A stretch of DNA of 64,000 bases from Corynebacterium faecale (lineage in GTDB: Bacteria > Actinomycetota > Actinomycetes > Mycobacteriales > Mycobacteriaceae), in assembly GCF_030408735.1 (NCBI RefSeq), contig NZ_CP047204.1, positions 2,108,001 through 2,172,000 of the forward strand, written 5' to 3'. Below the pieces are notes generated by a model. It worked only from the letters and a program-made list of their open reading frames with translations, was not told the DNA's origin and searched no databases. A program made the position numbers and the translations under genes. Positions 37,020 to 41,675 of this stretch are shown here, one piece after another; position 1 is the stretch's first letter; the number at the start of each line of letters is the position of its first letter.

Positions 37020-38918
37020 CTATCCTCTGAACGCCCGGGCCAGCAGTTCCCGTCGGGCCTGTTCCAGGGCCACCAGATCAGAGAACAGGGAGTTGTAGGC
37101 CTGTTCATCATCGGAGGGTCGCATGCGTTGCAATTGGCTTTTCAGCACCGCGATCTGGTTGCCCACGCGGGTTTCCTGTAGACGGGACAGCACACCATCG
37201 GTGTAGGATTCCACGTCTTGCGCTTCAACCTCGATGGGTTCCATCGCCAATTCTGATACCAGTGATGTACCCAGGATGTCGGCCATGTTCTCTGACACGC
37301 TGGGCAGCCAGTCCACTCCCGGCGTGGCCTGCTCACAACCGCCCGCGGCGGCGATGGCATCACGGACCAGCCGGTAGGCGGGGTTGGTGAAACAGTCCAC
37401 CGCCAGACCATCAAAGTAGGAACCCGCCAGTTCAGGATATTGGAGCGCGATCTTCAGGGATTCCCGCTCCTGCCACAGCGCGGGGTTGCGGGGATTGGGC
37501 ATGGTCATGTTCGGTCGACGGCTCTGATCCTCCAGCTGCTGGGTATCAAAGCGGGTTGCCCGCATCTGTTTCTTCTGCTGCCGGGGGCGCCGGGATTCCT
37601 CATGGACCTGGCGCAGCACTTCAGCCGGGTCGGGCCAACCCACCCAGCCGGCGAGGAGACGGGCGTATTCGGACTGCAGGGTCTTGTCACGGATCTCCGC
37701 AACGATGGGCACCGCGCGACGCAAAGCTGACAGGCGGCCTTCCACCGTGTCATGGGAGTAGTCGGCGATGATGGACTGGATGACGAACTCGAACATGGGC
37801 ACTCTGCTTGCGACCAGGTCACGCACCGCGGCGTCACCGCGTTCCAAACGCATATCGCAGGGGTCCATGCCCTCCGGGGCGACCGCCACATAGGACTGGC
37901 CGGTGAATTTCTGGTCTCCCTCAAAGGCACGCATGGCGGCCTTCTGTCCCGCCTCGTCGCCGTCAAAGGTATAGATGAGCTCACCGCGGAAATAGTTGTC
38001 ATCGAGCATGAGTCGACGCAGCATCTGCAGGTGTTCCTCACCGAAGGCGGTGCCACAGGATGCCACGGCTGTTTCAATGCCCGCGGCATGCATGGCCATG
38101 ACATCGGTGTATCCCTCCACCACCACGGCCTGGTGGCTCTGGGCGATGGCCCGTTTGGCTGTGTCCAGACCGAACAGCACCTTGGACTTCTTGTACAACA
38201 ACGTTTCGGGCGTGTTCATGTACTTGCCCATCTTGTCGTCGTCGAAAAGCTTCCGGGCGCCGAACCCGATGACATCGCCGGAGAGGTTCTTAATCGGCCA
38301 CAACAGACGACGCTGGAACTGGTCGATGGGACCACGCCGGCCCATCTTGGTCAGGCCGGCGGCCTCCAGTTCCTTGAACTCAAAACCCTTCTTCAGCAGA
38401 TATTTGGTCAGGGTGTCCCAACCAGCCGGGGCGTATCCGCATTCGAACTGGTAGATGTGTTCCTTGCTGAACCCCCGTTGCAGCAGGAAGTCCCTGCCGG
38501 GCTGGGCTTCGGGGGTTTCCAGCTGTTCACGGTAGAACTGGTGGGCAGCCTTGTTGGCCGCGATGAGACGCTGCCTGGTGCCCGGTTCCTCACGCCGCCC
38601 CGGGCCACCACCCTGATAGTTGATCTGGAAGCCGATCTTCTCAGCGCAGACCTCCACCGCCTCGGGGAAGGTGATGTGCTCCATCTCCATGAGGAAGGAG
38701 TACACATCACCGCCTTTGCCGGTGGAAAAGCAGTGGTAATACCCACGGTTGGGTCGAACGTGGAACGACGGTGTCTTCTCATCCTTGAAGGGGCTGAGTC
38801 CCTTGAGTGAGTCTGCGCCAGCGGTTTTAAGCTGCACATAATCACCCACGATCTCCTCGATCGGGGTTCGTTCACGGATTGCCTGGATATCGCTTTCCGG
38901 TATGCGTCCCTTAGCCAT
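37020..38918 (-). CDS. dnaG: DNA primase DnaG with degenerate zinc site
   Basis: 632 residues. Synthesises RNA primers at the fork. The TOPRIM core is intact: VVVEGYTDVMAMHAAG (catalytic glutamate) and YTFDGDEAGQKAA (DxD-type metal site), with QRRLLWPIKNLSGDVIGFGARK before it and a helicase-interacting C-terminal domain. The N-terminal CHC2 zinc ribbon is altered: where C-x2-H-x17-C-x2-C is expected the protein has S42, K45, C63 and T66 (GLSPFKDEKTPSFHV and YYHCFSTGKGGDVYSF). Start ATG 38916-38918 with a TAGAGT -10 seven bases upstream; a GTG three codons earlier overlaps the -10. Convergent with the YtxH-like gene and divergent from the ribonuclease gene. Confidence 0.96.
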   Translation of the reverse strand: MAKGRIPESDIQAIRERTPIEEIVGDYVQLKTAGADSLKGLSPFKDEKTPSFHVRPNRGYYHCFSTGKGGDVYSFLMEMEHITFPEAVEVCAEKIGFQINYQGGGPGRREEPGTRQRLIAANKAAHQFYREQLETPEAQPGRDFLLQRGFSKEHIYQFECGYAPAGWDTLTKYLLKKGFEFKELEAAGLTKMGRRGPIDQFQRRLLWPIKNLSGDVIGFGARKLFDDDKMGKYMNTPETLLYKKSKVLFGLDTAKRAIAQSHQAVVVEGYTDVMAMHAAGIETAVASCGTAFGEEHLQMLRRLMLDDNYFRGELIYTFDGDEAGQKAAMRAFEGDQKFTGQSYVAVAPEGMDPCDMRLERGDAAVRDLVASRVPMFEFVIQSIIADYSHDTVEGRLSALRRAVPIVAEIRDKTLQSEYARLLAGWVGWPDPAEVLRQVHEESRRPRQQKKQMRATRFDTQQLEDQSRRPNMTMPNPRNPALWQERESLKIALQYPELAGSYFDGLAVDCFTNPAYRLVRDAIAAAGGCEQATPGVDWLPSVSENMADILGTSLVSELAMEPIEVEAQDVESYTDGVLSRLQETRVGNQIAVLKSQLQRMRPSDDEQAYNSLFSDLVALEQARRELLARAFRG

Positions 38919-38925
38919 GGTGAAC

Positions 38926-38931
38926 ACTCTA
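38926..38931 (-). promoter_or_regulatory. -10 element of dnaG, leaderless
   Basis: TAGAGT on the minus strand ends seven bases before ATG 38916-38918. Confidence 0.55.
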
Positions 38932-38974
38932 GCCCCTCATCCGGACATCGTTCCCATGCGAGGACTATGCCAAG

Positions 38975-39517
38975 ATGGAACGCATGCTGAGAAGTGGAAA
39001 CAAGACTGTAGCCGGATTCATCGGAGCCGGGCTGATCCTCGCCGCCGCCTGGATGGGCTTTGATATCAGCGGAGATGACTCCGCTGACACACCAACTCCC
39101 ACCAGCATGCCCACCACGGCAAACACCTTCCTGCCCGGGCAGAACACCAGCACGCCCGCACCCGAACCCACCACCGCCAGCCCCGGGCAGAACACCATCA
39201 GCGGTCTGCCCACCTGCACCACGCTGGAACTGCCCAACCAGGCCGATCTGGTCATCGGGGACATCCTGGCCGGAGGCCCCTTCGATTACCCCGATAATGA
39301 TGGGGTGCGCTTCGGAAACTATGAAGGCATCCTCCCCGATGAGTCCAACAACTACTACCGTGAGTACACGGTGGAAACCCCAGGGCTGAATCACCGTGGG
39401 CCGCTGCGTATCGTCACCGGCGGAACCCAGGCCACCGACCCGGAGGTCTGGTATTTCACCGAGGATCACTATGAGAGCTTCTGTGAGATCACCGATGCTG
39501 AGAGCGTGGAGAATTAG
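38975..39517 (+). CDS. Secreted or anchored guanyl-specific ribonuclease (barnase/RNase Sa family)
   Basis: 180 residues. Basic N-terminus and hydrophobic helix 11-28 (signal anchor or signal peptide), a Thr/Pro-rich spacer (36-76), then a microbial ribonuclease domain (77-175). Catalytic residues by alignment to RNase Sa: E130 in NNYYREYTVETPG, R145 in LRIVTGG, H165 in TEDHYESF; the IxxGGPFxY and FxNxExxLP motifs are also present. C81 and C170 fall where the RNase Sa disulfide is. Cleaves RNA after guanine. ATG 38975 or 38984 are both possible. The barstar-like gene starts three bases after its stop, so the two are co-translated. Confidence 0.88.
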   Translation: MERMLRSGNKTVAGFIGAGLILAAAWMGFDISGDDSADTPTPTSMPTTANTFLPGQNTSTPAPEPTTASPGQNTISGLPTCTTLELPNQADLVIGDILAGGPFDYPDNDGVRFGNYEGILPDESNNYYREYTVETPGLNHRGPLRIVTGGTQATDPEVWYFTEDHYESFCEITDAESVEN

Positions 39518-39520
39518 ACC

Positions 39521-39781
39521 ATGGACATCGTGATCAGAGGCACGTTCCATGACCGGCAGGATTTCTTCGGTCTGATTGGCAGGGCGGCCTGGGGTCTCGA
39601 ACGCCCCTCCCCCACCAATTTCGACGGGCTGGCCGATCTGATCCGGGAAACCCACCTACAAAAAATCACCGTTCACGGGTCCTGGGCAGTGGAGAAGAAA
39701 ACAACCTCAACGCTCCACCGGATCTGTGAGGATCTCGGTGTGTCGCTGAGGTTGCCCGGGGACTTAAATCACGCAGGGTGA
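39521..39781 (+). CDS. Barstar-like ribonuclease inhibitor
   Basis: 86 residues, cytosolic (no signal), DIVIRGTFHDRQDFFGLIGR then PSPTNFDGLADLIRE and KITVHGSW. Size, strand-helix pattern and the NFDGLADL segment match barstar, and D35 and D39, the two aspartates that plug the active site of barnase, are at the same numbers here. It directly follows the secreted RNase gene by three bases, the arrangement of barnase-type toxin/inhibitor pairs. Proposed to neutralise the nuclease inside the cell before export. ATG 39521. Similarity is low outside these features. Confidence 0.75.
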   Translation: MDIVIRGTFHDRQDFFGLIGRAAWGLERPSPTNFDGLADLIRETHLQKITVHGSWAVEKKTTSTLHRICEDLGVSLRLPGDLNHAG

Positions 39782-39803: not shown

Positions 39804-41675
39804 TTATTCCACGGTGACCGACTTGGCCAGGTTGCGGGGCTGATCAACGTCATAGCCCTTCTCCGTGGCCACGGCGCAGGCGAAGATCTGCAGTGGCACG
39901 GTGGCCAGCAACGGCTGCATCAGGGTCGGGGCCTGCGGAATGCGGATGATGTAGTTGGCGTGCTCGTTGACAGCCTCATCGCCTTCCTCCGCGATGACAA
40001 TGGTGACGGCACCACGTGCACGGACCTCCTGAATATTGGAGACCACCTTGGCGTGGAGTGAATCACGGCCACGTGGGGATGGGACGATCACGAAGACCGG
40101 CTGACCGTCTTCCACCAGGGCGATGGGGCCATGCTTGAGTTCACCGGCTGCGAATCCCTCTGCGTGCAGGTAGGCGATCTCCTTGAGCTTCAGTGCACCT
40201 TCCAGTGCCACCGGGTAACCGACGTGGCGTCCGAGGAAGAGAACGGATTTGGCATCGACCATGGCCTGTCCGAGCTGCTTGACCTGATCTTCGTTGTCGA
40301 TCACCTCTTGGATCTTTGCGGGCATCTCACGCAGGGAATCCAGGATCACACTCACCTCATCGGCGAACTTGTTGCCACGAAGCTGCGCCAGGTAGAGACC
40401 GAGCAGGTAGGAGGCGGTGATCTGGGCCAGGAACGCCTTGGTGGAGGCCACGGAGATCTCCGGTCCGGCATAGGTGTAGAGGGAGGCATCCGCCTCGCGG
40501 GGCAGGGTGGAACCGACGGTATTGCAGATGGCGATGACCTTGGCGCCCTGTTCACGTGCATGACGTACAGCCATGAGGGTGTCCATGGTTTCACCCGACT
40601 GGGATAGTGCCACCACCAGGGTCTTCTCGTTCACAATGGGGTCCCGGTAGCGGAACTCATGGGCCAGTTCCACCTCGGTGGGGATACGGCACCAGTGTTC
40701 GATGGCATAACGTGCCACCTGACCTGCGTAGGCCGCGGTGCCGCAGGCAACCACGATGATCTTGTCCGCGGACCGCAGTACGGATTCATCGATACGCAGT
40801 TCATCCAGGACCAGCTTGCCTTCCTCGTCGAGGCGGCCCAAGAGGGTATCGCGCACGGCGGCGGGCTGGTCGTGGATCTCCTTGTCCATGAAGGAGTGGA
40901 ATCCACCCTTCTCTGCAGCGGCGGCGTCCCACTCCACGGCGAAAGGCTTGCCTACCGCCGGGGTGCCGTCGAAGTTGGTGATCTCATAGGAATCGGCGGT
41001 GATGGTGACGATCTGGTCATTGCCCATCTCCACAGCGTTGCGGGTGTAGTCAATGAAACCGGAGACATCGGAGCCCAGGAAGTTCTCCCCCTCGCCCAGG
41101 CCGATCACCAGTGGTGAATTGCGGCGCGCGGCCACGATCCGGTCACCGTGCTCAGCGTGGATGGCCAGGAGGGTGAACGCACCTTCAAGGCGCTGACCGG
41201 TCAGCTGCATGGCCAGGGTGAGGTCACCGTTACCCTCAGTCTTGTAGATCTCTCCCAGCAGGGTGGCCGCCACCTCAGTATCAGTGGAGGAGACGAAGTT
41301 ATAGCCCTTGGACACCAGCTCGGCACGGAGTTCGGAGAAGTTCTCGATGATGCCGTTGTGCACCACGGCCAGCTGTCCACCGGCCACCACGTGCGGGTGG
41401 GCGTTGACATCGGTGGGTCCACCGTGGGTGGCCCAGCGGGTGTGGCCGATTCCGAGGATCGACTGCGGCAGCGGAGCGCGGGCTATCTCGCCGTCCAGTG
41501 CAGCGACCTTGCCTGCCTTCTTCCGGAAGTTGATCTCCCCGTCCGAGTAGACAGCCACGCCTGCCGAGTCATATCCGCGGTATTCCAGCCGACGGAGTCC
41601 CTCGAGAACTACGTCCAGCGCATAGTAGTTGCGGGTGTCACCCGCTTGGCCAATGTATCCGACAATTCCACACAT
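39804..41675 (-). CDS. glmS: Glutamine-fructose-6-phosphate aminotransferase
   Basis: 623 residues. Makes glucosamine-6-phosphate from fructose-6-phosphate and glutamine, the first step to UDP-GlcNAc for peptidoglycan. N-terminal Ntn glutaminase: C2 nucleophile in MCGIVGYIG, GHTRWATHGGPTD and HNGIIENFSELR. Two SIS isomerase domains follow (VACGTAAYAGQVARY, ALSQSGETMDTL, and GRHVGYPVALEGALKLKEIA) and the C-terminal QIFACAVATEKGYDVDQPRNL with the active-site lysine in LAKSVTVE. Start ATG 41673-41675; TACAGT seven bases upstream indicates a leaderless message, leaving no room for a glmS ribozyme. Confidence 0.97.
   Translation of the reverse strand: MCGIVGYIGQAGDTRNYYALDVVLEGLRRLEYRGYDSAGVAVYSDGEINFRKKAGKVAALDGEIARAPLPQSILGIGHTRWATHGGPTDVNAHPHVVAGGQLAVVHNGIIENFSELRAELVSKGYNFVSSTDTEVAATLLGEIYKTEGNGDLTLAMQLTGQRLEGAFTLLAIHAEHGDRIVAARRNSPLVIGLGEGENFLGSDVSGFIDYTRNAVEMGNDQIVTITADSYEITNFDGTPAVGKPFAVEWDAAAAEKGGFHSFMDKEIHDQPAAVRDTLLGRLDEEGKLVLDELRIDESVLRSADKIIVVACGTAAYAGQVARYAIEHWCRIPTEVELAHEFRYRDPIVNEKTLVVALSQSGETMDTLMAVRHAREQGAKVIAICNTVGSTLPREADASLYTYAGPEISVASTKAFLAQITASYLLGLYLAQLRGNKFADEVSVILDSLREMPAKIQEVIDNEDQVKQLGQAMVDAKSVLFLGRHVGYPVALEGALKLKEIAYLHAEGFAAGELKHGPIALVEDGQPVFVIVPSPRGRDSLHAKVVSNIQEVRARGAVTIVIAEEGDEAVNEHANYIIRIPQAPTLMQPLLATVPLQIFACAVATEKGYDVDQPRNLAKSVTVE

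Follow-up and report, generated by a model that had tools for sequence, protein, structure and literature searches.

We analysed a 64,000-nucleotide (nt) window of the Corynebacterium faecale genome (contig NZ_CP047204.1, positions 2,108,001 to 2,172,000) and identified two tandem open reading frames (ORFs) on its plus strand that very probably form a two-gene unit, in which a ribonuclease (RNase) is made for export and a cytosolic barstar-type inhibitor would block the enzyme inside the cell. The RNase gene (38975..39517, the TAG stop codon ending at 39517) encodes a 180-residue protein of the RNase Sa/barnase family (PF00545), and the partner gene (39521..39781) encodes an 86-residue candidate barstar-type protein, its ATG at 39521 lying three bases after the RNase stop codon. 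A first-pass annotation had proposed an exported RNase with a barstar-type inhibitor at this position, and the proposal is supported by the RNase family, by the adjacency of the two genes across the genus, by a barstar-type profile and by a compatible predicted fold.

The first gene encodes a putative exported RNase

The RNase matches PF00545 over residues 73–172 with an E-value of 2.4e-21 and a score of 76.5 bits, above the curated cut-off of 24. Among PDB sequences it matches RNase Sa3 (1mgr) with an E-value of 9.8e-17 and RNase Sa also at about 1e-16, bearing out the RNase Sa/barnase domain that had been assigned to it. The RNase domain spans residues 78–174 (39206..39496) and is the only Pfam domain found in the protein, with no delivery domain. 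Counting along the RNase Sa alignment, we find that E117, E130, R141, R145 and H165 align with RNase Sa E41, E54, R65, R69 and H85, which we take to be catalytic or guanine-site residues. The catalytic Glu/Arg/His set of PF00545 (E130, R141/R145, H165) and the guanine-site Glu (E117) are therefore all in place. Specifically, E130 and H165, two of the three residues first annotated as catalytic, coincide with RNase Sa E54 and H85, while the third, R145, falls on R69, and R65 has R141 as its counterpart.

The two cysteines of the domain, C81 and C170, had been equated with the RNase Sa disulfide. C81 indeed aligns with RNase Sa C7, but C170 aligns with S90, six places ahead of C96, presumably the second cysteine of RNase Sa. 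As judged from this alignment, the second cysteine of the disulfide is shifted relative to its RNase Sa counterpart. Both cysteines are retained in at least 148 of the 149 Corynebacterium RNase loci described below.

Ahead of the domain, a basic start is followed by a hydrophobic segment (residues 11–29; 39005..39061) whose best 17-residue hydropathy mean is 1.88. The segment fits a signal anchor, as first annotated, and a signal peptide as well. A hydrophobic segment of at least 1.6 is present in 147 of 150 RNase rows, which were taken from the earliest possible start and trimmed to 190 residues, and in which the window RNase is counted twice (from the window and as locus L002). The spacer that follows (residues 31–77; 39065..39205) is rich in Thr, Pro and Ser, in agreement with the Thr/Pro-rich spacer described at first; P, T or S occupies 25 of the 48 residues at 31–78.

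A family of small proteins follows the RNase across the genus

The partner carries no hydrophobic leader. The single sequence gave no match to Pfam Barstar (PF01337) at E ≤ 1, and so did not reach the curated profile score, no useful NCBIfam family match, nothing significant among PDB sequences and no match in a plasmid collection. Its sole Pfam match is HTH_26, sub-threshold at E 0.072, and a Pfam Barstar search of the genome that holds the window found no match. A protein search returned only four close relatives plus the partner itself, and a related-locus search returned one locus, from Cohnella (L001; 40% over residues 49–84). With no Pfam or NCBIfam family and four relatives, a barstar reading of the lone protein is a guess from a short motif, namely the DxxxD formed by D35 and D39 (39623..39637), which do stand at the residues first annotated.

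The genus provides a much larger sample. The RNase is matched in 194 of 201 Corynebacterium genomes, and we read the locus in 149 of the 194 (30 + 119 loci, L002 being that of the window; genome G091 is among those left out). A small ORF of the partner kind lies behind the RNase in 92 of the 149 loci. In 91 of them the partner start, after trimming, falls between −44 and +51 nt from the RNase stop codon, and in 78 of these 91 between −14 and +5; L064, with a start at +226 nt, is the 92nd case. The 91-locus set holds partners that start less than 80 nt from the stop codon and includes the degenerate motifs of L061, L104, L110, L112 and L114. The set omits the motif ORFs of L096 and L115, judged false, and the more distant ones of L063 and L081. 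Residue counts for the cysteines and for D35/D39 are based on this set or on the 149 loci from which it was drawn.

Within this family, conservation across 64 members reaches at least 90% at P31, N33, L34, D35 and D39; among the 91 partners, 87 have D35 and 88 have D39, the window protein having both. The median pairwise identity is 34% for the partner versus 67% for the RNase domain (4095 pairs from the same 91 loci). The motif pattern is found in 1 of 383 ORFs of 50–200 residues in the whole window, that one being the partner itself, and in 1 of 149 control stretches taken from the opposite strand, compared with 91 of 149 coding-strand stretches downstream of the RNase (the same pattern with a reach of 400 nt; this count includes a few false hits and differs in membership from the 91-locus set). 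The D35/D39 motif behind the RNase exceeds chance expectation.

Consistent with these counts, a profile of the partner family matches 106 of the 201 genomes at E ≤ 0.01. Among its 107 matches, 92 follow the RNase directly, within 200 nt and on its strand, when RNase places are taken for the genomes with a profile match plus three others. Twelve more have no listed RNase place, and three are not within 200 nt (L064 at +232, and two at E 0.007–0.008 on other contigs). Only 5 of 16 family members carry a name in their source, in every case "hypothetical". The partners at L054:1753-2052 and L070:797-1177(-) have a cysteine-bearing N-terminal extension (CADCGGF and CCGGQCGGF, respectively) ahead of the barstar part, which is perhaps metal-binding.

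Profile comparison connects the family to barstars

The Pfam Barstar model touches 16 of the 64 family members weakly, with a best E-value of 5.8e-5. Across the genus, 7 of the 201 genomes respond to the model, six of them precisely behind the RNase, and two matches exceed its cut-off, one of which is beside the RNase (G198, borderline). Separately, genome G023 has a Pfam barstar (E 2.8e-15; L032:1456-1767(-)) away from its RNase, which is itself without an adjacent partner.

To the class-level sample, PF00545 contributes an RNase in 34 of 197 genomes, the window's own included. We read loci from 29 of the other 33 and found a barstar-motif ORF behind the RNase in 19 of these 29 (a motif ORF in L213 was dropped as being in the wrong frame). 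Sixteen of the 19 were aligned, and all 16 are Pfam Barstar positive. In hhalign, the Corynebacterium profile matches these 16 barstars over 68 columns with a probability of 95.9 and an E-value of 5.3e-9, and matches eight Pfam-found barstars with a probability of 85 and an E-value of 6.3e-6; both E-values refer to one pairwise comparison, not to a database. In addition, the profile matches, at E 1.3e-6, the ORF behind the RNase of G458, a genome of the same family in another genus, and this ORF is a Pfam Barstar at 1.7e-15. Class-level matches other than those in G000 and G458 have E-values of 7.7e-4 or worse. By profile-level homology to confirmed barstars, the partner belongs to the wider barstar group, outside the Pfam Barstar model. 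Of the 11 RNase loci read within genus code g5, four (L189, L192, L194 and L200) have a barstar-motif ORF directly behind the RNase, and seven (L190, L193, L195, L197, L198, L199 and L211) do not.

The structural model predicted for the partner has three helices, with helix 34–44 carrying D35 and D39. Barstars head the VIA-align list for this model, no barstar is among the 50 matches listed by Foldseek, and the fold-comparison scores against barstar are middling. On these mixed results, the predicted fold is at most compatible with that of barstar.

Locus organization and proposed mechanism

The pair is flanked by two core genes on the opposite strand, dnaG (37020-38927, minus) and glmS (39804-41675, minus), both named by eye from their translations, no family search having been made. 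The ORF positions, the three-base spacing and the dnaG/glmS setting are all as first annotated. GAGGA at 38960..38964, 10 bases 5′ of the ATG, probably serves the RNase gene as ribosome-binding site, and GGAG at 39508..39511, within the end of the RNase gene and 9 bases 5′ of the ATG at 39521, probably does so for the partner. A promoter scan at the locus detected no promoter, and the one terminator-like site there is on the other strand and no more than chance gives.

In the mechanism we propose, the first gene would produce a metal-independent, guanyl-specific RNase, which would cross membrane and wall by means of its basic N terminus, the hydrophobic segment and the Thr/Pro-rich spacer. The second gene, whose translation probably starts from the GGAG site within the RNase gene, would supply the small cytosolic inhibitor. 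In the barnase–barstar precedent, Asp residues of the inhibitor plug the basic active-site cleft of the RNase. By analogy, helix 2 of the partner may offer D35 and D39 to the basic cleft formed by R141, R145 and H165, plugging any enzyme that folds before export. Outside the cell, where the inhibitor would be absent, the enzyme would be free to cut RNA. A leader on the enzyme and none on the partner fit such a lock-inside, free-outside scheme.

Loci without a partner and variant residues

Several observations weigh against this RNase–inhibitor unit or go unexplained by it. No adjacent partner is recognised in 57 of the 149 RNase loci, and partner presence changes at least 7 times on the RNase-domain tree (95 columns; only 20 of 145 inner branches starred), compared with a minimum of 39 in 200 label shuffles. 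The catalytic Glu (E130 in the window) is Ser in 12 loci (L050, L063, L068, L080, L081, L082, L084, L088, L089, L090, L107 and L113), none of which has a recognised adjacent partner. The other 45 partner-less loci retain the Glu, so an adjacent lock is not required. Finally, the partners of L104, L112 and L114 have Glu at 35 and Lys or Asn at 39.

The Glu-to-Ser replacement is a single change on the tree and thus counts as one event, without statistical proof, and a comparison of partner presence with E130S over independent pairs has no power because Ser arose once. Eleven of the 12 Ser-for-Glu RNases also have Ser at the position of window T162. RNase positions 108, 83 and 148 show the strongest differences between loci with and without a partner, differences that are confounded by descent. 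In L104, L112 and L114, the partner starts with GTG and the RNase catalytic residues are kept; the partner there is possibly a decaying or re-specified inhibitor. A tentative and rather doubtful extension of these observations is that the Corynebacterium RNase belongs to the core proteins of the cell surface and can do without its inhibitor, which has repeatedly been gained or lost, and that the Ser group may be a non-cutting, RNA-binding surface protein.

Alternative explanations

The same anatomy, a leader-bearing RNase followed by an inhibitor gene, could serve competition as a toxin–immunity pair, in which other cells receive the RNase and the partner protects the producer and its kin. A 2012 survey (PMC3482391) states that simple barnase–barstar pairs might be an incipient toxin–immunity gene order, and the partner diverges far faster than the enzyme, as the median identities above indicate. 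We nevertheless consider this unlikely, because the RNase is near-universal in the genus with a conserved domain, because the window protein lacks a Pfam delivery domain, and because 57 of the 149 loci have no recognised adjacent immunity gene. A near-universal, conserved RNase with a drifting partner would suit a housekeeping enzyme, secreted or at the surface, that is fitted with a safety lock better than it would a polymorphic weapon.

An intracellular, type II-like toxin–antitoxin module, with the RNase directed at RNA of the producing cell itself, would account for genes that overlap or nearly do so and for a probable protein inhibitor. It is very improbable in view of the hydrophobic leader in nearly all RNase rows, the two conserved cysteines, which suit an oxidised compartment, and the many genomes that keep the RNase without a partner. 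Least credible of all is that the small protein is unrelated and no inhibitor, its D35 and D39 being coincidental, since, for all the missing direct Pfam Barstar match, the lone HTH_26 hit and the middling fold scores, both residues are almost fixed in a family of such low identity, the profile and the G458 bridge lead to confirmed RNase-paired barstars, barstars head the VIA-align list, and the motif hardly occurs in the control stretches.

Relation to known systems and significance

The RNase family PF00545 is common to the Corynebacterium pair, to barnase–barstar of Bacillus amyloliquefaciens and to RNase Sa–barstar (PDB 1ay7). Like barstar, the partner is leaderless, and its helix 2 carries a pair of Asp spaced by four residues, numbers 35 and 39, which we take to be the numbers of barstar's own paired Asp. 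Unlike the genes of barnase and barstar, the Corynebacterium genes form an adjacent tandem; the inhibitor model differs from barstar in having three helices, and P29 and A38 stand where, in equal numbering, barstar presumably has Tyr29 and Trp38. RNase Sa and Sa3 of Streptomyces (1ay7, 1mgr) are alike in the RNase domain, whereas the Corynebacterium gene adds a hydrophobic leader and a Thr/Pro-rich spacer and has the second cysteine displaced. Other actinobacterial pairs (e.g. L196, L191 and L206) likewise consist of an RNase and then a barstar-motif ORF, often at −4 nt; Pfam recognises their inhibitors, most of which read F/Y-G-x-N-x-D-A-L, whereas the Corynebacterium branch mostly reads P-x-N-L-D and falls below the model.

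The Tox-Barnase and Imm-Barstar proteins of polymorphic toxin systems share the barnase-type RNase and the DxxxD, which the available portion of the survey (PMC3482391) names as the Imm-Barstar motif; its single mention of Corynebacterium there concerns another toxin. Unlike polymorphic toxins, the window RNase protein shows no further Pfam domain. In titles and abstract openings of the literature on barnase/barstar and on actinobacterial or Corynebacterium RNases, we found no description of the pair. An RNase–inhibitor pair is a known kind of system, and the Corynebacterium form is, by its sequence, a divergent new member of it that the usual barstar search misses.

Corynebacterium includes industrial species and pathogens. 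Our analysis marks a probable RNase–inhibitor pair beside core genes in this genus, proposes a role for a group of small "hypothetical" proteins, and reveals that most of the Corynebacterium branch escapes the Pfam Barstar model. With a patchy inhibitor and a Glu-to-Ser group of RNases, the question of when an exported RNase needs a lock becomes askable, and if the inhibitor is indeed dispensable and repeatedly gained or lost, Corynebacterium would offer a natural experiment in what purpose an RNase lock serves.
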